From NCBI GenBank assembly GCA_023258775.1, contig JALQWJ010000062.1:1-8067 (forward strand): 8,067 bases of DNA. Direction: 5' to 3'. This document shows positions 1 through 7,591 of the stretch, in pieces (positions within the stretch are counted from its first letter, which is position 1; every line of letters begins with the position of its first letter). The notes below the pieces were generated by a model. That model saw only the letters and a program-made list of their open reading frames with translations, was not told where the DNA came from and ran no database searches. A program made the translations under genes and the position numbers. The DNA comes from Burkholderiaceae bacterium (GTDB taxonomy: Bacteria; Pseudomonadota; Gammaproteobacteria; Burkholderiales; Burkholderiaceae_E).

Positions 1-663
1 TGCTTTCAAGGGTTCGAAAACCCAGAACGGTACGCAAAAGTCGACGTCGCCTGCACGACCGTTGATATCGATGGTGAATTTGCAATGCAAAACCATCTCG
101 TCGTTGCCCGTTATCTTGGCAAACTGAAAGTTGCCTTCGGACCGGACAAAGTCAAACTTCAACTCATAGACCTGCTTCCATGCTTTTTCGTATTCGGCGA
201 GCACCATGTCGACAAAACGCCGAACAATACGCAATTCTGTAGCGGTATATTCCTTTGGAACGATCTTTGGTTCGAGGTGCCCTTCGCCACCGAACATATT
301 ATCGATGGTGAGGTAAATCACGGCAGGGTCGACAATCCAACAAGCCACACCACGGAGCGACTTAATATTAACGATATTAATATTAGTCCGCTCTGGAAAA
401 CTACCAAGAAACTCGCTATAGGGTTTAATACGCGGGGGATGCAAGTCAACTTCGCACCGGCACCGAATCATATTAAACAACTGCAAACGCATCGTGCGTG
501 CAAATCGCTCGTGAATCAACTCAAGCGTTGGCATCCTTCGACTAAGGATGCGGTGCATCTTGTCAAACACGGAAGCTTTCGCTTCACGCGTTGTCTTCAG
601 CACATCCTTGCCGAGGTCCTCCTCGGGAGGATCGCCTGATTGTGACTTTACCGCTTCACTCAC
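1..663 (-). CDS. fliM: Flagellar motor switch protein FliM, partial (C-terminus beyond the left edge)
   Basis: C-ring protein that links FliG to FliN and sets the direction of flagellar rotation. The frame is open from the left edge to an upstream in-frame TAA near 703. The 221 visible codons contain FliM middle-domain landmarks: RMPTLELIHERFAR, PYSEFLGSFPERTNINIVNI, KSLRG, DNMFGGEG (the GGxG loop that contacts FliG), EYEKAWK and FDFVRSE. The missing part would hold the rest of the CheC-like domain and the FliN-like C-terminal domain. There is no ATG near the N-terminus. GTG at 663 (giving MSEAVKSQ...) is preferred, with TTG at 678 (MSETSVSE...) as the alternative; neither has a good Shine-Dalgarno sequence. 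The N-terminal tail is acidic and lacks the usual LSQxEIDALL peptide that binds CheY-P. The gene follows fliL by about 60 bp on the same strand. The family call is firm; the start is uncertain. Confidence 0.93.
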   Translation of the reverse strand, partial: MSEAVKSQSGDPPEEDLGKDVLKTTREAKASVFDKMHRILSRRMPTLELIHERFARTMRLQLFNMIRCRCEVDLHPPRIKPYSEFLGSFPERTNINIVNIKSLRGVACWIVDPAVIYLTIDNMFGGEGHLEPKIVPKEYTATELRIVRRFVDMVLAEYEKAWKQVYELKFDFVRSEGNFQFAKITGNDEMVLHCKFTIDINGRAGDVDFCVPFWVFEPLKA

Positions 664-724: not shown

Positions 725-1453
725 TTACTGCATGATGAAGGACTTGAACAACACACCTTGCACCGGTAGGTCCATCTCGCTGATGCGCCAGAACTGTGCC
801 GCTGCCTCTCGCGCAACCTGGGTCATTTGCGCTGTCGCTGATGCGTCTTTGGGCATCGCGCCAATGCGCTCCAGATTCCGTAAATCTGCTGTCGAGGGCT
901 GCTGCTGGAGCACATAAATCGCGGTCAACTGCGGCTCAATAATCGAATTGACAACCAAAGCGATCTCTTTACCGAGGATTTCCTTGCCTTCAACGGTGGC
1001 TAATTGCTCCATCGATCGCGAGGAAAGCACCGTGATAATACGGTCCTGAACCACAGGCAAGAACTCTTTGATCTTGCCTTCGACCTTGCCTTCCGATACG
1101 CGCAAGAACATTTCGACCTGCAAGTAGTGCTCACCGCCCTTTGAAGGAAGATTGACGGTAAATGGATCCATCTTGACGAAGGTTGGCGCTTTATTTTCTT
1201 TCTTGAACTGCATTTGCGCCTTGAGACGACTCTCGAGGGTCTGTTCAGCTTCTTCCGCCTCTTTCTTCTTCTTAGCGGAATACCACATCCAGCCGCCGAC
1301 GCCGCCGCCGATCAGTACAAGAACAACAACTATCGCAATAATCAGCGGTAACTTGCTCTTTTTTACAGGCGCTTCTTCACCTTCTACTCCAGCGGCGGGA
1401 GGCGCTGCTGCTGCGGTTGCGGGTGCTGCTGGATTCAATTCTGCTTCAGCCAT
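725..1453 (-). CDS. fliL: Flagellar basal body-associated protein FliL
   Basis: Single-pass inner-membrane protein that surrounds or supports the MotAB stator and affects motor torque. The 242 residues show an Ala/Pro-rich cytoplasmic N-terminus (about 1-34), a KKSK stop-transfer flank, one membrane segment (about 36-58, with a GGGVGG patch), a charged coiled stretch (60-88), then the periplasmic FliL domain from PTFVKMDPFTVNL to the terminal LFKSFIMQ. That ending is typical of the family. The protein is longer than most FliL (about 150-180 aa). The excess includes the N-terminal tail and roughly 50 residues (about 178-228) between the NSIIEPQL helix and the last strand. The ATG at 1453 is preceded only by a weak purine stretch. 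The gene starts 84 bp after fliK and no promoter is evident in that gap, so it is probably co-transcribed with fliK and fliM. Confidence 0.95.
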   Translation of the reverse strand: MAEAELNPAAPATAAAAPPAAGVEGEEAPVKKSKLPLIIAIVVVLVLIGGGVGGWMWYSAKKKKEAEEAEQTLESRLKAQMQFKKENKAPTFVKMDPFTVNLPSKGGEHYLQVEMFLRVSEGKVEGKIKEFLPVVQDRIITVLSSRSMEQLATVEGKEILGKEIALVVNSIIEPQLTAIYVLQQQPSTADLRNLERIGAMPKDASATAQMTQVAREAAAQFWRISEMDLPVQGVLFKSFIMQ

Positions 1454-1537: not shown

Positions 1538-2956
1538 TTAAACATAAAGACTAAGTCCCGCATCGGCAAGGCGGCCACTTTCCATCGCGCGGGTCGATAC
1601 GGGAGAACGGATTGCCGCGCTTGTCACCGCCGATTGCGAAGCATTATCGCCTGATTGTTGAAAAGACTGCTGCGACGCAAAAGACTGGCTAAAGCCCGAG
1701 GCTGCTCCGGTATCAACCGACACCGTCAGGGCAAGGCCTGAAGCTTCGAACGCAGCATGGAGCTGGCTCAAGGCACGCTCGATACTGGCTTTAGCAGCCT
1801 CCGTGGCGGCATGGACAACTAAGCTTGCCTGCTCACCGCGCGGATCCACGCTCAGCTCAAGACGAACTTGCCCAAGATCGGGGGGTGTGAGATCGAGTGT
1901 CGCGCTGCCGCCTTGCTTTGAAGCGAGCCAACTCACGGTTGCCGACATCGCCTGAGCATTTTGGCTTTGAGCAGCAGCAGAGACGCTTGCAGGCGCCGCG
2001 TTTACCAAAGCCGGTGCGACACCAGGCATGCCAGCAACAAAGCTATTTGAAACAAGCGCCGACACGCCATTCGTGTTGGGCTGTTCTTTGGCAGCATCAT
2101 CAGGCACTGCAGCAGCACTCGTTGCGCTCTGCGACTCAGTTACTGATCTTGCTGCCGACGCGCTTTGTTGATCGAGCAGTTGAACCCCATTGAAATCGCC
2201 CAACGCCGCGGTGTTTAACACGGAACCTGAAACCGCCGCTTGTGTATCAGACCGGAACGGGCCTGCCGATGGATCAGCGCTTGACGTAGCCGCAGCAGAT
2301 CCAGGCACAGCACCCATACTGGACAAGGCTTTTTGAAGCGAGGCCTGAAGATCAAGTTCCGCCGTCGAAGGAGCCGCGCTCGGAGCCGTAGCAAGCAAAG
2401 CGAGATCAATACCGAGCCCAGCCTTTGGCCCAAGCCAACCCTGCGCTTGCAAGGCAGCCGTTGCCGTCGGATCTCCTCTCGATGCAGCGGCGAGTTGAGC
2501 GGCTAGTTGATTTCGGGCAGCTTGGTCGTTCATGACAGCAGCTAGCTGCCTGGCAGATTCCAAATCAATCTTGCCTGCCGCGCTCAACATGGCAAGGGTT
2601 GACTGCTCAGAACCCGCACTCTTCAACGACGAGGCCGTCTGCGAAGCATTACTAACCGAGGCCTCAAGCAAGTTTGCCGCCGACCCCAAGGACGACCCGG
2701 CAAAATTTGCCGGATTTAAGGCAAACTGACTTCCGTTGTTGCCGATCTGCTGTCCGTTTTCAAAGTCTTCGCTCAACAAATCACCCGAAGGCTGTTGATC
2801 AGGTGCCGAGTTGTCCAAGGCACCCATACGCGACTCTAAAACTGATAAAAGCAGGTCAAACCCTTCCTTAGGTGCATGATCGGCAGGTTTAACCGGACGA
2901 TCGGCCTCTTTGACATCGTGGCGTGCTTGCTGCTTTGGAGTCTGAATCGAAATCAT
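1538..2956 (-). CDS. fliK: Flagellar hook-length control protein FliK
   Basis: Exported molecular ruler that measures the hook and triggers the FlhB substrate-specificity switch from rod/hook to filament subunits. Using the ATG at 2956 the protein has 472 residues. A long low-complexity Ala/Ser/Gln-rich region (about 50-335) fits the flexible ruler part. It is followed by the conserved C-terminal hook-control domain (about 340-416) with the family core LDLTPPDLGQVRLELSVD and a helix ERALSQLHAAFEASGLALTV. A Gln/Ser-rich tail ends in GLSLYV, resembling the usual ...LDLYA end of FliK. The frame extends upstream to a TTG at 2998, but the ATG at 2956 is preferred because it is preceded by GAGGA and starts a more typical export-like N-terminus (MISIQTPKQQ). 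Its own sigma-54 type promoter lies upstream at 3023-3037. The N-terminal half will align poorly with homologues, as is normal for this family. Confidence 0.94.
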   Translation of the reverse strand: MISIQTPKQQARHDVKEADRPVKPADHAPKEGFDLLLSVLESRMGALDNSAPDQQPSGDLLSEDFENGQQIGNNGSQFALNPANFAGSSLGSAANLLEASVSNASQTASSLKSAGSEQSTLAMLSAAGKIDLESARQLAAVMNDQAARNQLAAQLAAASRGDPTATAALQAQGWLGPKAGLGIDLALLATAPSAAPSTAELDLQASLQKALSSMGAVPGSAAATSSADPSAGPFRSDTQAAVSGSVLNTAALGDFNGVQLLDQQSASAARSVTESQSATSAAAVPDDAAKEQPNTNGVSALVSNSFVAGMPGVAPALVNAAPASVSAAAQSQNAQAMSATVSWLASKQGGSATLDLTPPDLGQVRLELSVDPRGEQASLVVHAATEAAKASIERALSQLHAAFEASGLALTVSVDTGAASGFSQSFASQQSFQQSGDNASQSAVTSAAIRSPVSTRAMESGRLADAGLSLYV

Positions 2957-2968
2957 GCTGCGTATTTT

Positions 2969-2973
2969 TCCTC
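2969..2973 (-). promoter_or_regulatory. Shine-Dalgarno sequence supporting the fliK ATG start
   Basis: GAGGA on the minus strand lies 12 bases upstream of the ATG at 2956. The spacing is a little long, but it favours this ATG over the in-frame TTG at 2998, which has no purine-rich sequence in front of it. Confidence 0.5.
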
Positions 2974-3022
2974 GTAAGCCTAAACGGTTGTAAGCCAATA
3001 ACCGTTAACCACTACGCATTTA

Positions 3023-3118: not shown

Positions 3119-3562
3119 TCATCGACGGTGAAGTCTGGAGGAAACAGCATCCTCATTTTCTCTCACCTCGCGCAATTGCATCTCGGCAAGCTCATCCGAC
3201 CGCGCCCGACGCTCAAGCTTTTCTAATCCGTCCAAACGTAATTTTAAGGCTTGATGCTGCGCAACTGCAGCCTCAGTAATCTGACGTTGCGGCTCACTCG
3301 CTATTCTTTGCTCATGGGCAGTTGACTCAAGCTTTCGAGCAAATTCCAAGGTATTGACGAGTTCGGAAGGTAGCGCATGGCCACGAGACATGATTCTTGG
3401 AAGATCGGAACGATACTCTTCCGCAAATTGATCAAGCTGACGGGCTGCCCCCACTGCGTCAAAGAGTTTTTTTCGTTCGCGCTGCGCTTGGGCTGCAGCC
3501 TGCTGCTCACGCAGCCTCGCCACCCTCAAAACGGCTTCGAGCGCTTGCCTACGCAGTGCCAC
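3119..3562 (-). CDS. fliJ: Flagellar export protein FliJ
   Basis: Small soluble coiled-coil protein of the flagellar type III export gate. In the family it inserts into the FliI hexamer like the gamma stalk of F-type ATPases and helps recycle chaperones. The 147 residues match the usual length (about 145-150). They are almost entirely predicted helix with many charged residues and Gln (for example LREQQAAAQAQRERKK near 17-32, and LRLDGLEKLERRARSDELAEM near 108-128). FliJ sequences diverge strongly, so identity rests on length, coiled-coil character and position directly after fliI. The GTG start at 3562 is well supported by a strong AGGAGG five bases upstream. The start overlaps the end of fliI by 14 bases, indicating translational coupling. 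A 162-bp gap to the fliK start follows. Confidence 0.88.
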   Translation of the reverse strand: MALRRQALEAVLRVARLREQQAAAQAQRERKKLFDAVGAARQLDQFAEEYRSDLPRIMSRGHALPSELVNTLEFARKLESTAHEQRIASEPQRQITEAAVAQHQALKLRLDGLEKLERRARSDELAEMQLREVRENEDAVSSRLHRR

Positions 3563-4946
3563 CTGCGCCTCCTAGCAATCCAAAAAGCGCAATGAGCGAG
3601 TCACTCATCGAATGATTATCGTGCATGCCCTGCTGCAAGAACTGCTGAATACCGGGCCAAAGACGCAGCGCCTCATCGAGTCCTGGATCGCTACCTGGCG
3701 CATAAGCACCCATCGCGACCATGTCTCGGCCTCTCATGTACCTTGAGATGAGCTGTTTAACCTTACGGGCTGCCTCGAGGTGACGCTCATCGGTCACTTT
3801 AGGCATCACGCGCGAAATTGACTTTTCAATATCGATAGCCGGATAGTGGCCCGAATCAGCAAGTTCACGCGACAAAAACAAGTGTCCGTCGAGAATGCCT
3901 CGTGCGGTGTCAGCCACAGGATCATGGATATCGTCACCTTCGAGCAAGATGGTGTAGAAGGCAGTGATGGAGGAGTCGGGTACGGCACCGTTACCAACTT
4001 TTTCAACCAACTCGGGCATTTTTGCGAAAACTGAGGGTGGGTAGCCCCTTGAGACTGGCGGCTCGCCGAGGGAAAGCGCTATTTCACGCTGAGCCATCGC
4101 GAATCGGGTAAGCGAGTCAATAATTAAAACAACATGCCGCCCCTGATCACGAAAATAAGTTGCCACATCGGTAGCAAATAGGGCTCCTCGCAGACGCGCT
4201 AAGGGGCTTGCATCGGCTGGCGCAGCAACGACAACCGATCGATGTAGTGCATCGGACCCGAGCGTGTCTTCACAAAACTCGCGTACTTCGCGACCTCGCT
4301 CGCCAACCAAACCGATCACTACAACATCGGCCACACAACGCCTTGCAAGCATGCCTAAGAGCACTGATTTGCCAACACCCGACCCGGCAAATATCCCAAC
4401 CCTTTGTCCACGGCCAACCGTGAGCATGGCATTGATCGAACGCACACCTGCATCGAGAGGCTCTCGAATCGGCTGACGATGCAAGGGGTTGATGACAGGC
4501 GAGCGATAAGGATTTGGCGCCTCAGCACCTGTAGGAAGCCCGTCAAGAGCACGCCCATAACCATCAACAATGCGTCCGAGCAATGCTTCGCCAATCGGAA
4601 GCGGTGGCGCAGACTCAATGGGAATAAAGCGTTTACCCTCTTGTGCTGGTGTGTTGGCAGGATAAACAACGGCTCCGGGCGCGACTCGACTCGCGGGATC
4701 AATCGGCATCAAGTAGGTGGTGTGCCCTGAGAACCCAACGCACTCGCACTCAACCCAGCCGTTTCCGGAGGCTACGGCGGCACGATTGCCAATGGTCATT
4801 GGCAGCCCAGCAACCTCAAGCATCAAACCAGAGACTCGCTCAAGCCTTCCACTTCGAACGCCACGCGGGGCAGCTTGAATGCGCGCAGTCCAGCCGCGCA
4901 GTCGCTTGGAAGCGAGTTCAGCTCGACTCGGCGAGGTCGGCTGCAT
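3549..4946 (-). CDS. fliI: Flagellum-specific ATP synthase / export ATPase FliI
   Basis: Hexameric ATPase on the cytoplasmic side of the flagellar type III export gate, related to F1-ATPase beta. It works with FliH and FliJ to deliver substrates. With the ATG at 4946 it has 465 residues (E. coli FliI has 457). Visible motifs are an N-terminal beta-barrel region (about 30-95), Walker A AGSGVGKS (about 187-194), the VGERGREVREF segment with the likely catalytic Glu (about 214-224), Walker B VVLIIDSLTRFAMAQRE (about 272-288), and GEPPVSRGYPPSVFAKMPELVE. The C-terminal helical part includes SGHYPAIDIEKSISRVMP. All key ATPase residues are present. The frame can begin at a GTG at 4967, seven codons earlier; neither start has a convincing Shine-Dalgarno sequence. 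The 5' end overlaps fliH by 29 bases (50 with the GTG) and the 3' end overlaps fliJ, so fliHIJ looks translationally coupled. Confidence 0.97.
   Translation of the reverse strand: MQPTSPSRAELASKRLRGWTARIQAAPRGVRSGRLERVSGLMLEVAGLPMTIGNRAAVASGNGWVECECVGFSGHTTYLMPIDPASRVAPGAVVYPANTPAQEGKRFIPIESAPPLPIGEALLGRIVDGYGRALDGLPTGAEAPNPYRSPVINPLHRQPIREPLDAGVRSINAMLTVGRGQRVGIFAGSGVGKSVLLGMLARRCVADVVVIGLVGERGREVREFCEDTLGSDALHRSVVVAAPADASPLARLRGALFATDVATYFRDQGRHVVLIIDSLTRFAMAQREIALSLGEPPVSRGYPPSVFAKMPELVEKVGNGAVPDSSITAFYTILLEGDDIHDPVADTARGILDGHLFLSRELADSGHYPAIDIEKSISRVMPKVTDERHLEAARKVKQLISRYMRGRDMVAMGAYAPGSDPGLDEALRLWPGIQQFLQQGMHDNHSMSDSLIALFGLLGGAGGTA
3568..3573 (-). promoter_or_regulatory. Strong Shine-Dalgarno sequence of fliJ, inside the fliI 3' end
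   Basis: AGGAGG on the minus strand is five bases from the GTG at 3562 and lies within the codons for the FliI C-terminal Leu-Gly-Gly-Ala. It fixes the non-ATG start of fliJ. It is the best ribosome site seen in the window. Confidence 0.75.
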
Positions 4947-5610
4947 GGCGAGTGTTGTCGGAGGCACGCGGCAAAAGCCCCATGGCCATCAGTACCAGAG
5001 CACGCCGAGCCTCGGGGCCCACGTCAATACGCGTACCTTCGACCTCGATGTAGGCACCGTCTTCCTGGTCAGCGTCGGCGAGAATATCAACTTTAAAGGG
5101 AAGGCTCGCCTTCGCGAGGAATTCGTCCCAAATGGCGCGTTGGGAGGGCGGCACACGCAAAAGTAGGTTCTCGCCTGGAGAAGGCAGTCTCATCAGAGCT
5201 TCTTGAACCGCATGCAGGAAAGGTGCTCGGTCAATATGTTCGCCAAGCGAAAGACGCTCAGCTATCGACCAAGCCAGATCCGTGATGGGTTCGAGAATGA
5301 CCGTCGGCAGTTCGCTTAATTCGTCGATAAATTGCTGCAGTGTCGCGCCTAAATCGAGAATTTGTTGGGTGTGCTCCTGGTAGGCCTGATCACGCCCCTC
5401 GCCAAGCCCTTGTTCAAAACCCTGTGTAAATCCTTCAGCGAGTCCTTTGGCAAAACCATCTTGCTTGCCCGCTTCGAAGCCTTCACGCCTTGCGGCCTCT
5501 CTTATCGCTTCAATTTCTTCAACGGTCGGCCAAACAATATCTGGCTCCGGCTCTGGCACCGGGGGATCAAAACTCGGTGGAAACCACCGTTGAGCAGCCG
5601 TTCGAACCAT
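4918..5610 (-). CDS. fliH: Flagellar assembly protein FliH
   Basis: Negative regulator and anchor of FliI: a dimeric stalk that binds FliI through its C-terminal domain and docks the ATPase to FliN and FlhA. The 230 residues are close to the usual length (about 235 in E. coli). The N-terminus has the family-typical aromatic patch (RWFPPSF, Trp9) and a Pro/acidic stretch. A glycine ladder follows with Gly at every fourth position (44, 48, 52, 56, 60, 64, 68, 72), the GxxxG repeat characteristic of FliH. Next come a coiled helix (about 75-100) and the C-terminal FliI-binding domain, with LLRVPPSQRAIWDEF and DGAYIEVEGTRIDVGPEARR. The ATG at 5610 lies 61 bp after the fliF stop, with no clear Shine-Dalgarno sequence. 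In most relatives fliG would lie between them. Confidence 0.94.
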   Translation of the reverse strand: MVRTAAQRWFPPSFDPPVPEPEPDIVWPTVEEIEAIREAARREGFEAGKQDGFAKGLAEGFTQGFEQGLGEGRDQAYQEHTQQILDLGATLQQFIDELSELPTVILEPITDLAWSIAERLSLGEHIDRAPFLHAVQEALMRLPSPGENLLLRVPPSQRAIWDEFLAKASLPFKVDILADADQEDGAYIEVEGTRIDVGPEARRALVLMAMGLLPRASDNTRHAADLAESS

Positions 5611-5671
5611 GATGAATGTTTAGGGTGACGACCAGTCGATGCTTAGCGAGGCAGGCGCTTCTCGCCCACCA

Positions 5672-7591
5672 TCAAGCCAAGCCCTTTTCAACATCTTCCT
5701 GTAGCCACTGCTTGAAGATGGCCGCCACAACCCTTGGATCTTTCTGAACAAATTCCTTGGCGTAGGCAAGCAACTCTTCGTATTCGGCAGCCTTTTCCTC
5801 TTCCTCGCGCTTGCGCTTGTCTTCGAGGATTCGACGTTCCTCTTCAAGGCGCTGACGCTCTTCTTCTTCCTGAATACGGCGACGCTCACGCTCAAGTTCA
5901 AGCTCAAGGCGACGCTTCTCACGCGCTGCTGGCGACATCGCTTGCAATTCAGCCTTAACGCGCTCATCGAACTCTTCTTCGATCCGCTGCTCTTCTTCAA
6001 CCACTTTAGGTGGTGGCGGGAAGAGGATAGGACGGACTAAGAACACCGTCACAAGACCTAGCACCGTCGCAATGATCAAGAATTTGAAAAATTCCTTCAT
6101 CACGCTAGCAAAAGTAGCCTGCTTCCAAAACGGTGGCTCGTCGCTCACCGGCGGCGAGAAAGGAATACTCACGACCGACACCGAGTCGCCGCGCTGCTGA
6201 GAAAATCCCATCGCGTCGCGAACCAGCGATGTCATTTGCTGGATCTCCTGTTGGGTGTAGGCTGTCTCTTTAACATTGCCTTCGGCATCAACCGTCTTTT
6301 TAAAGTTCACGATCACGGCCGTTGATACCCGCTTCACGCTCGCGCGAGGTCCGCGAACGGTTTGAATCGCACGGTCAACTTCGTAGTTAACGGTTTGCTC
6401 TTTGCGCGCTGCGTTGGTGGAAACTGGGCTCTGCGTGCCTGGTGGCTGGGCTTGACCTTGGCCTGGCTGACCCTCGATGGGGGCCTGCCCGCCTTGAGGC
6501 GGCTGGTTGGTCAACGCACCCGGAATACCCCCCGCACTCGTGACGGGCCCGGTTGCTTCGAGATTTTGCTGGGAGCGAATGCTTGCCGGGTTTTGTCCGG
6601 AGTTGGGCTTGAAAATCTCCTCAGCACGCTCACTTTGAGTGAAATCAACATCGACTGCGACCTGGGCACGAACATTGTCACGCCCTGTCACTGGCTCAAG
6701 AATCGTAACGATTCGCCTCGCCACCTGATTTTCGACCTCAGCAACATACTTAATCTGTGCAGCGTCCATGCCGCTTGCACCGCTACGACTTGGATTAGGC
6801 GCGAGCAAGCCGCCGTCGCTATCAACCACGGTGACCATGGCGGGCAATAACTGTGGAACCGATGAAGATACCAAATGGGTAATTGCGGTGACCTGTTGAT
6901 CATCGACCACACGACCCGGGTGGAGCGATAAGACCACGGATGCTGTCGGCTTGGGTTGATCACGCAAAAAGGCTGATGTTTTCGGGATAGCCAGGTGAAC
7001 CCTAGCCTCTCTGACCTGGGCCAAGGTCTTGATTGAGCTCGATAACTCCGATTCAAGCGCCCTCTGGTAATTCACCTGTTCGACGAACTGTGAGGTGCCA
7101 AGCTTTTGATTTTCAAGCACTTCAAAGCCGACATTTCCTGCTTTTGGAAGCCCCTGACCCGCAAGTTTTAAACGCGCATCGTAAACCTTATCGCCGGGCA
7201 CCATGATGGCACCGCCCCCTTCGGTAAAGCGATGGGGTACCTTCATTTGCTCGAGCGCGGCAACGATTGCCGCCCCGTCTTTGTCATTGACGTTTGAGAA
7301 CAGAACCTTGTAGTCGTCCTTCTTATCGCCCGACATGGCAACAAGCACCACGGTGATCGCCACGAGCAGGATGGACACGACGAGCAATAGCTTACGCAGC
7401 GGTGAGAGCTCACGGATGCGATCTGCGACCTCTTCCCAACGCTCAGGAAGTGTTTTCGGACCACCTGGACGACTGACGCGCTCGACCTTGGGCGGCGCCA
7501 TGTCCTCCTGCACAATCGCATTGGGATTTACCCCAATCACTGTGGCACCGTTTTCGGCTTGCGCTGCAAGCCCTGGGTTCATGTCTGCCAT
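5672..7591 (-). CDS. fliF: Flagellar M-ring (MS-ring) protein FliF
   Basis: Builds the MS ring in the inner membrane, the platform for the C-ring, rod and export gate. The 639 residues are long for the family (about 550-570). Features in order: cytoplasmic N-terminus with PERWEEVADRIRELSPLRK; first membrane segment (about 68-86); periplasmic ring-building motifs (about 93-260) with YKVLFSNVNDKDGAAIVAAL and FVEQVNYQRALESELSSSI; a Gly/Pro/Gln-rich loop (about 328-400) with the family sequence GGIPGALTNQPP; the ring strand YEVDRAIQ; second membrane segment (about 503-522); and the cytoplasmic tail. That tail starts with an unusual Glu/Arg/Lys-rich stretch (about 530-606). It ends with AKEFVQKDPRVVAAIFKQWLQED (about 611-633), which matches the FliG-binding C-terminus. 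The ATG at 7591 has no strong Shine-Dalgarno sequence, and an in-frame TGA near 7633 limits any extension. The gene is first in its unit, downstream of a sigma-54 type promoter. Confidence 0.97.
   Translation of the reverse strand: MADMNPGLAAQAENGATVIGVNPNAIVQEDMAPPKVERVSRPGGPKTLPERWEEVADRIRELSPLRKLLLVVSILLVAITVVLVAMSGDKKDDYKVLFSNVNDKDGAAIVAALEQMKVPHRFTEGGGAIMVPGDKVYDARLKLAGQGLPKAGNVGFEVLENQKLGTSQFVEQVNYQRALESELSSSIKTLAQVREARVHLAIPKTSAFLRDQPKPTASVVLSLHPGRVVDDQQVTAITHLVSSSVPQLLPAMVTVVDSDGGLLAPNPSRSGASGMDAAQIKYVAEVENQVARRIVTILEPVTGRDNVRAQVAVDVDFTQSERAEEIFKPNSGQNPASIRSQQNLEATGPVTSAGGIPGALTNQPPQGGQAPIEGQPGQGQAQPPGTQSPVSTNAARKEQTVNYEVDRAIQTVRGPRASVKRVSTAVIVNFKKTVDAEGNVKETAYTQQEIQQMTSLVRDAMGFSQQRGDSVSVVSIPFSPPVSDEPPFWKQATFASVMKEFFKFLIIATVLGLVTVFLVRPILFPPPPKVVEEEQRIEEEFDERVKAELQAMSPAAREKRRLELELERERRRIQEEEERQRLEEERRILEDKRKREEEEKAAEYEELLAYAKEFVQKDPRVVAAIFKQWLQEDVEKGLA

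Follow-up and report, generated by a model that had tools for sequence, protein, structure and literature searches.

A fliF-fliH junction without fliG in one genus of Burkholderiaceae, and scattered fliG copies in that genus and a second one

In the flagellar gene cluster of a Burkholderiaceae bacterium, fliF is followed by fliH with no intervening fliG, and at least one of three lone copies encoded elsewhere in the genome probably supplies the FliG of the motor in trans, as judged from sequence comparisons. FliG is the part of the rotor on which the stators push. The cluster lies on the window, i.e. the whole stretch of DNA analysed here, which is a complete contig (C427) of 8,067 bases from a bin (G000) of 1.94 Mb that comprises 468 contigs and is 62% complete.

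Open reading frames and Pfam matches identified fliF, fliH, fliI, a weakly matching fliJ, fliK, fliL and the start of fliM on the minus strand of the window (Table 1). Only 61 bp separate the fliF stop from the fliH start, and a tblastn search using five FliG proteins as queries gave no FliG match in the window at E<=10. The preliminary description, according to which fliG is missing from this junction and has left no remnant, was thus borne out. A single short DNA match was obtained (E 5.6e-4): 15 bases corresponding to coding nucleotides 624-638 of the fliG copy termed type C below are found at window positions 5605-5619, antisense to the operon and overlapping the fliH start codon. When 150 stretches of 160 bp were drawn at random from the window, 3 contained a word of equal length, and some of these 3 may include the same site. 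We read this antisense match as chance and, as tblastn gave no match either, rejected the possibility of a fliG remnant hidden at the junction.

Table 1. Features of the window and their positions
Feature	Position	Strand	Remarks
fliM, truncated by contig end	1..678	-	PF02154
fliL	725..1453	-	PF03748
fliK, hook-length control	1538..2998	-	PF02120
fliJ, weak match	3119..3562	-	PF02050, 24.6 bits (cut-off 28.4); placed after fliI
fliI, export ATPase	3549..4967	-	PF00006 and PF18269; start position not settled
fliH, 230 aa	4918..5610	-	PF02108, 23.8 bits (just below the cut-off of 24.1)
fliF-fliH junction	5611..5671	-	61 bp; site where relatives carry fliG
fliF, MS-ring protein, 639 aa	5672..7591	-	PF01514 and PF08345; 93% identical in G003
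Last 36 residues of FliF, putative FliG-binding tail	5675..5782	-	by analogy with known motors
Start of divergent gene, truncated by contig end	7814..8065	+	position; sequence likeness to G003 and LSUCC0115

Whether such a junction is shared by relatives could be answered in one genome. In G003, which belongs to the same genus, fliF is likewise followed by fliH without fliG, with 95 bp between the two genes. This is the sole close relative in which the junction is visible, the fliF gene of the related genus g11 (see below) being cut, and no close relative carrying an intact fliG at this place was found. The GC content of the fliF contig is 0.64 in G003 and 0.54 in the window despite 93% identity between the two FliF proteins, indicating that they are not one contig seen twice.

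The proteins of the cluster that are expected to contact FliG appear intact at the relevant places. In known motors FliG is bound by the C-terminal tail of FliF, and the last 36 residues of FliF are identical in G000 and G003 and similar in canonical relatives; the GGxG loop of FliM, read from the translation, is present at residues 130-133 (window 280-291). Both segments had been predicted to be kept. The tail is preceded by a long, highly charged and probably coiled-coil stretch of FliF (window 5675-6080) that is also found in canonical relatives and is absent from three outgroup FliFs. The fliH product is 44% identical over 209 residues to the protein at the place of fliH in isolate LSUCC0115. 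The product of the truncated divergent gene had no Pfam match; it is 62% identical over 80 aa to the product of the gene at this place in G003 and 47% over 70 aa in LSUCC0115, and from its position we take it to be a flrB-like sensor kinase.

A search of the G000 bin with the FliG_C profile revealed three full-length FliGs, on contigs C188 (type A), C13 (type B) and C244 (type C). All of them are above the curated cut-off and free of internal stops, and each carries the FliG_N, FliG_M and FliG_C domains in this order, again above cut-off. They are 90-93% identical to one another (A-B 337/363, B-C 333/363 and A-C 328/365 aligned residues). The proposal that FliG is encoded elsewhere in the genome was therefore correct. 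No flagellar gene was seen around any of the three copies on the fetched stretches and, unlike in sampled relatives, none lies directly after fliF, a position that is usual and not required of FliG. Type A is flanked by a divergent gene for an ABM-domain protein on one side and a convergent RND pump gene on the other, so that it must have its own promoter. Type B lies next to a LysR gene and a MaoC gene, and type C adjoins TauD. Some antisense open reading frames were drawn in the fliG neighbourhoods by the simple gene caller used.

Lone fliG copies were also present in the other genomes of the window's genus (g1, comprising G000-G003) and in those of genus g11 (G013, G023 and G031). Types A and C are present in G001 and types B and C in G002, in neighbourhoods common with G000; the two copies of G003 have other neighbourhoods. 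Among the g11 loci, one overlaps an Nramp transporter gene and a second is flanked by genes for a molybdopterin enzyme and for PUCC. Whole copies number 2 to 3 in each of G000-G003 and G013, the three contig-end pieces of G031 are consistent with two loci, and G023 has one whole copy and three contig-end fragments. Counting such fragments, all seven g1 and g11 genomes have at least two fliG loci away from flagellar genes. DNA similarity among paralogs breaks off exactly at, or close to, the limits of the coding sequence; types A and C of G000 are the exception, their similarity continuing into an RND tail past the stop. At the type C locus of G000 (L069:1-370, on C244), this tail of an RND pump gene begins 31 bp after fliG, as at the type A locus, where G001 and G002 have a Cys/Met-metabolism gene; the tail may result from a rearrangement or a chimeric assembly.

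The arrangement of the window is rare among the genomes sampled. A family search returned 74 genomes, 67 of which are outside g1 and g11. Among these 67, FliG was found in 48 (one match each), FliF in 49 and both in 47, and fliG lies directly after fliF on the same strand in 47 of 47. The unpaired cases are one genome with FliG only, near a contig end (G086), and two with FliF only (G021, and G068, where it is at a contig end). In other families of the order, 18 of 24 genomes have both genes, and these are adjacent in 18 of 18; among the genomes of these families, G040 has a FliG match split over two frames. A scan of a contig collection returned 79 loci, the first 42 of which were mapped: 22 belong to the same FliG lineage and have fliF upstream in every case (18 of them also show fliH on the downstream side, and the remaining 4 are on contigs that end before it). 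Another 8 loci are more distant and likewise have fliF; the last 12 lack fliF and trace back, without exception, to six g1 or g11 genomes already seen. The loss of fliG from an otherwise tidy operon is unusual, as had been stated at the outset. As at least two lone loci occur in 7 of 7 genomes of g1 and g11 against the canonical order elsewhere, we conclude that the fliG-less junction and the lone copies represent a clade-specific relocation plus duplication. Genus g1 is known here from bins only, two of which carry the sample names K_Offshore and K_DeepCast, presumably Lake Tanganyika material.

The lone copies appear to be under strong purifying selection. Between G001 and G002, type C shows 47 synonymous and 0 changed codons, and between G000 and G001, 174 synonymous and 2 changed codons. 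The corresponding numbers are 50 and 1 for type A (G000 and G001), 8 and 0 for type B (G000 and G002), and 112 and 4 for a pair of orthologous g11 copies. Where computable, dN/dS of orthologs was 0-0.008 in these five pairs, pairs involving G003 being saturated at synonymous sites and giving no ratio; two paralog pairs gave 0.07 and 0.035. Types A, B and C are identical to the Salmonella protein at E125 H126 P127 Q128 R160 (EHPQR), G194 G195 (the Gly-Gly linker), K264, R281 and D289, and carry E at 288 and K at 297 (Salmonella numbering) as do canonical members of the lineage. The charged residues of the torque helix, for which a FliG profile search had been proposed, are thus kept in all three copies (K264, R281, E288, D289 and K297). 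At position 289, E replaces D in some canonical relatives, and S or A is found in the g11 copies. We take the kept residues to be those serving contacts with FliM and the stators, and switching.

Differences between paralogs cluster in the ARMC segment for A versus C (p 0.003, 10 of 55 residues), B versus C (0.0008), G003_A versus G003_C (0.003) and G013_1 versus G013_2 (0.04), and not for A versus B (0.18). Such clustering was also seen in 2 of 9 pairs of ordinary canonical orthologs (L098/L100, p 7e-5, 14 of 55 residues; L102/L109, p 0.026), and isoform specialisation was consequently not accepted on this basis. Crude scans for sigma-54 and sigma-28 sites, covering up to 300 bp before each copy and set against 100 shuffles per scan, revealed no consistent pattern. 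For G000_A and for the diverged G002 copy described below, only 3 of 100 shuffles each reached the top sigma-54-like score, and for G013_1 and G013_2 8 of 100 did so. However, the leading site of G000_A does not recur among the top-scoring sites of G001_A, and the leading site of G013_1 scores lower in G023_1 (38/100). Because they are not consistent among orthologs, these sites were not taken as evidence for flagellar-type promoters. Carriage by phages or recorded plasmids was also rejected: by the patterns used, no relative was encoded on viral contigs, and plasmid records held only FliF and FliG proteins below 60% identity (116 and 104 records, respectively).

A fourth, diverged stand-alone FliG, 34-39% identical to type A, lies between amidohydrolase and AMP-binding genes. 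It is whole in G002 (L075:9207-10238, on C64), where it lacks torque charges (K264Q, R281P, D289A), cut by the contig end in G000 (C155:12343-12945) and broken by a stop or frameshift in G001 (C367:1964-2922). The preliminary description had envisaged that the missing FliG might have a diverged form: G000 does hold, on C155, part of such a gene in addition to the three full-length copies, and the multiplication, its clade-wide pattern and the existence of genomes that have fliG without detected flagellar genes had not been foreseen. One metagenome FliG (P0121) is identical to type A over its first part (117/117 residues) and matches type B over the rest (248/249), which reflects either recombination between paralogs or an assembly chimera.

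In a FliG tree, the copies of g1 and those of g11 each form a group (support 100/100 for both), and the two groups join apart from the canonical FliGs (90/94). A single exit from the operon with subsequent copying inside each genus would account for this topology, support for the joint clade being moderate; separate departures in the two genera are possible. No neighbourhood shared by the g1 and g11 loci was seen, and in the FliF tree the incomplete, long-branched sequence of G023 did not pair with g1. The FliG and FliF proteins of g1 and g11 are closer to those of LSUCC0115 and to Polynucleobacter-labelled sequences (about 64% and 50-58% identity, respectively) than to those of the remaining genera in their GTDB family (about 34-44% and 35-50%). 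On sequence grounds, this higher likeness suggests that the flagellar system has another ancestry, or that the assignment to this family deserves a check.

The lone FliGs could have a flagellum-independent job, the flagellum having been lost in the species represented by G001, G002, G013 and G031 and FliG retained there for some other membrane or rotor-like role. We sought six families (FlhA, FliF, Flg_bbr_C, MotB plug, FliM and MotA_N) in the seven g1 and g11 genomes and in LSUCC0115. All six were found in LSUCC0115, four in G000 (FliF, FliM, MotB plug and Flg_bbr_C, with MotA_N and FlhA not found), three in G023 (FliF, Flg_bbr_C and part of FlhA), one in G003 (FliF) and none in each of the remaining four; searches for FliM, MotA and FlhA were negative in most of the seven. 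FliG without FliF occurs in 4 of 7 of these genomes versus 1 of 48 others (p 0.0005), and the type C copies of G001 and G002, which show no changed codon, both stand in genomes without detected flagellar genes. Since all 24 tests were negative in four genomes of 90-99% completeness (two of these bins having 6 and 8% contamination), random incompleteness is an unlikely cause, leaving systematic loss during binning or true loss. However, the residues kept for FliM, stators and switching are not obviously needed by another job, and the flagellar contigs are all short, 3.2 to 8.1 kb, as expected if they often escape binning. In metagenomes, we counted at least 240 FliF members at >=90% identity (7 listed clusters) versus at least 119 members at >=88% identity (3 listed clusters) for the TauD gene beside type C. 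FliG members at >=89% identity number at least 344 for all copies together (8 listed clusters) and comprise, by eye, at least about 135 A, 69 B and 129 C, with 11 unassigned or mosaic. This gauge is rough, cluster sizes being uneven and TauD possibly marking only some species. As FliF is not rarer there than chromosomal genes of the genus, the counts favour a binning gap over loss of the flagellum. We regard a flagellum-independent job as unlikely. The same modest weight is given to a broader version, in which the lone FliGs would be core chromosomal genes that outlive the flagellum, under near-complete purifying selection without FliF, FliM or stators, and from which the flagellum, in species that have one, would borrow its rotor. 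On flagellar contigs of both g1 and g11, a gene for a eukaryotic-type carbonic anhydrase (PF00194) lies just upstream of the rod-protein genes (L179:2497-3975, on C19 of G000; L181:869-2191, on C139 of G023). G023 has two variant rod-protein contigs (L181 on C139 and L182 on C137), a sign of strain mixture or of duplication in the flagellar region.

Three further explanations would place the anomaly in the data. The window could belong to another organism, with a fliG at any place in that genome, by a binning error, with the three FliGs belonging to the true genome of the bin: its GC content (0.54) is a little above that of the FliG contigs (0.49-0.51), the bin is only 62% complete, and the tetranucleotide correlation of the window is 0.56 with C244, 0.15 with C13 and 0.56 with the foreign G023, which is not decisive. 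This is improbable, since two g1 bins of very different GC content each carry a fliG-less cluster at their own GC; in G003 the fliF contig (0.64) stands beside FliG contigs of 0.62-0.63, and its FliF is highly similar to that of the window. That fliG was dropped from the junction by the assembly, being a repeated gene with copies at contig ends in G023 and G031, is more improbable still: the same junction with a different spacer of 95 bp is found in G003, and repeats tend to break contigs and would not normally create a fliF-fliH link across a unique 61-bp spacer. Just as little credence is given to a mixture of strains in the bins, by which variants of a single gene would pass for several FliGs. 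The bins are fragmented, G023 carries variant rod-protein contigs and C244, with its RND tail, could be a chimera, but G000 and G001 both contain the pair A and C, and G000 and G002 the pair B and C, each copy having its own neighbourhood that recurs in another species, and the paralogs are 75-77% identical in DNA with saturated dS, far past strain variation.

Combined, the conserved residues, the near-zero dN/dS of orthologs and the kept tail of FliF point, in our view, to the lone FliGs as those from which the motor is built. In the preferred reading, supply of FliG in trans, fliG would have moved out of the operon in the ancestor of either genus or of both and would then have been copied within each genus. 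Under other promoters, the dispersed loci might allow the dose or the isoform of FliG to be adjusted independently of the other basal-body parts, and we infer that the several copies could serve such control. Because the G000 bin is only 62% complete, a fourth full fliG copy may lie unseen inside another flagellar cluster. In sampled relatives, FliG comes from one gene directly behind fliF; a clade with two to three conserved, scattered copies would be a naturally occurring example of rotor isoforms, or of a rotor dosed separately from the rest of the basal body. Retention of the copies in species that lack flagella would mean that FliG has a second function.

The canonical fliF-fliG-fliH cluster is found in the same FliG lineage, in isolate LSUCC0115 (MWH-UniPo clade) and in related freshwater Burkholderiales bins. 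LSUCC0115 is described in one report as having flagellar assembly genes (PMC6952679). The G000 system resembles these clusters in FliG (about 63-65% identical) and FliF (50% in LSUCC0115), and the window shares with them the order fliF, fliH, fliI, fliL, fliM and the divergent flrB-like gene. The two arrangements differ in that LSUCC0115 has a single fliG between fliF and fliH, whereas the window's genome has three copies elsewhere and none at the junction. To our knowledge, flagellar systems with more than one FliG occur mainly in spirochetes, and the literature searched, with partial coverage, contained no description of fliG relocation or multiplication for Burkholderiales. Borrelia is reported to have two FliGs, of which FliG2 is needed for flagellar synthesis and assembly and FliG1, asymmetrically placed, for torque (PMC7225975, PMC11673145). 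Compared by feature and not by origin, the present system is like Borrelia in having at least two FliG paralogs in one genome, and unlike it in that the copies are 90-93% identical and number up to three, plus a diverged one. The arrangement is thus a variant: several FliGs were already known from Borrelia, and their departure from the operon and multiplication in Burkholderiales are apparently new.
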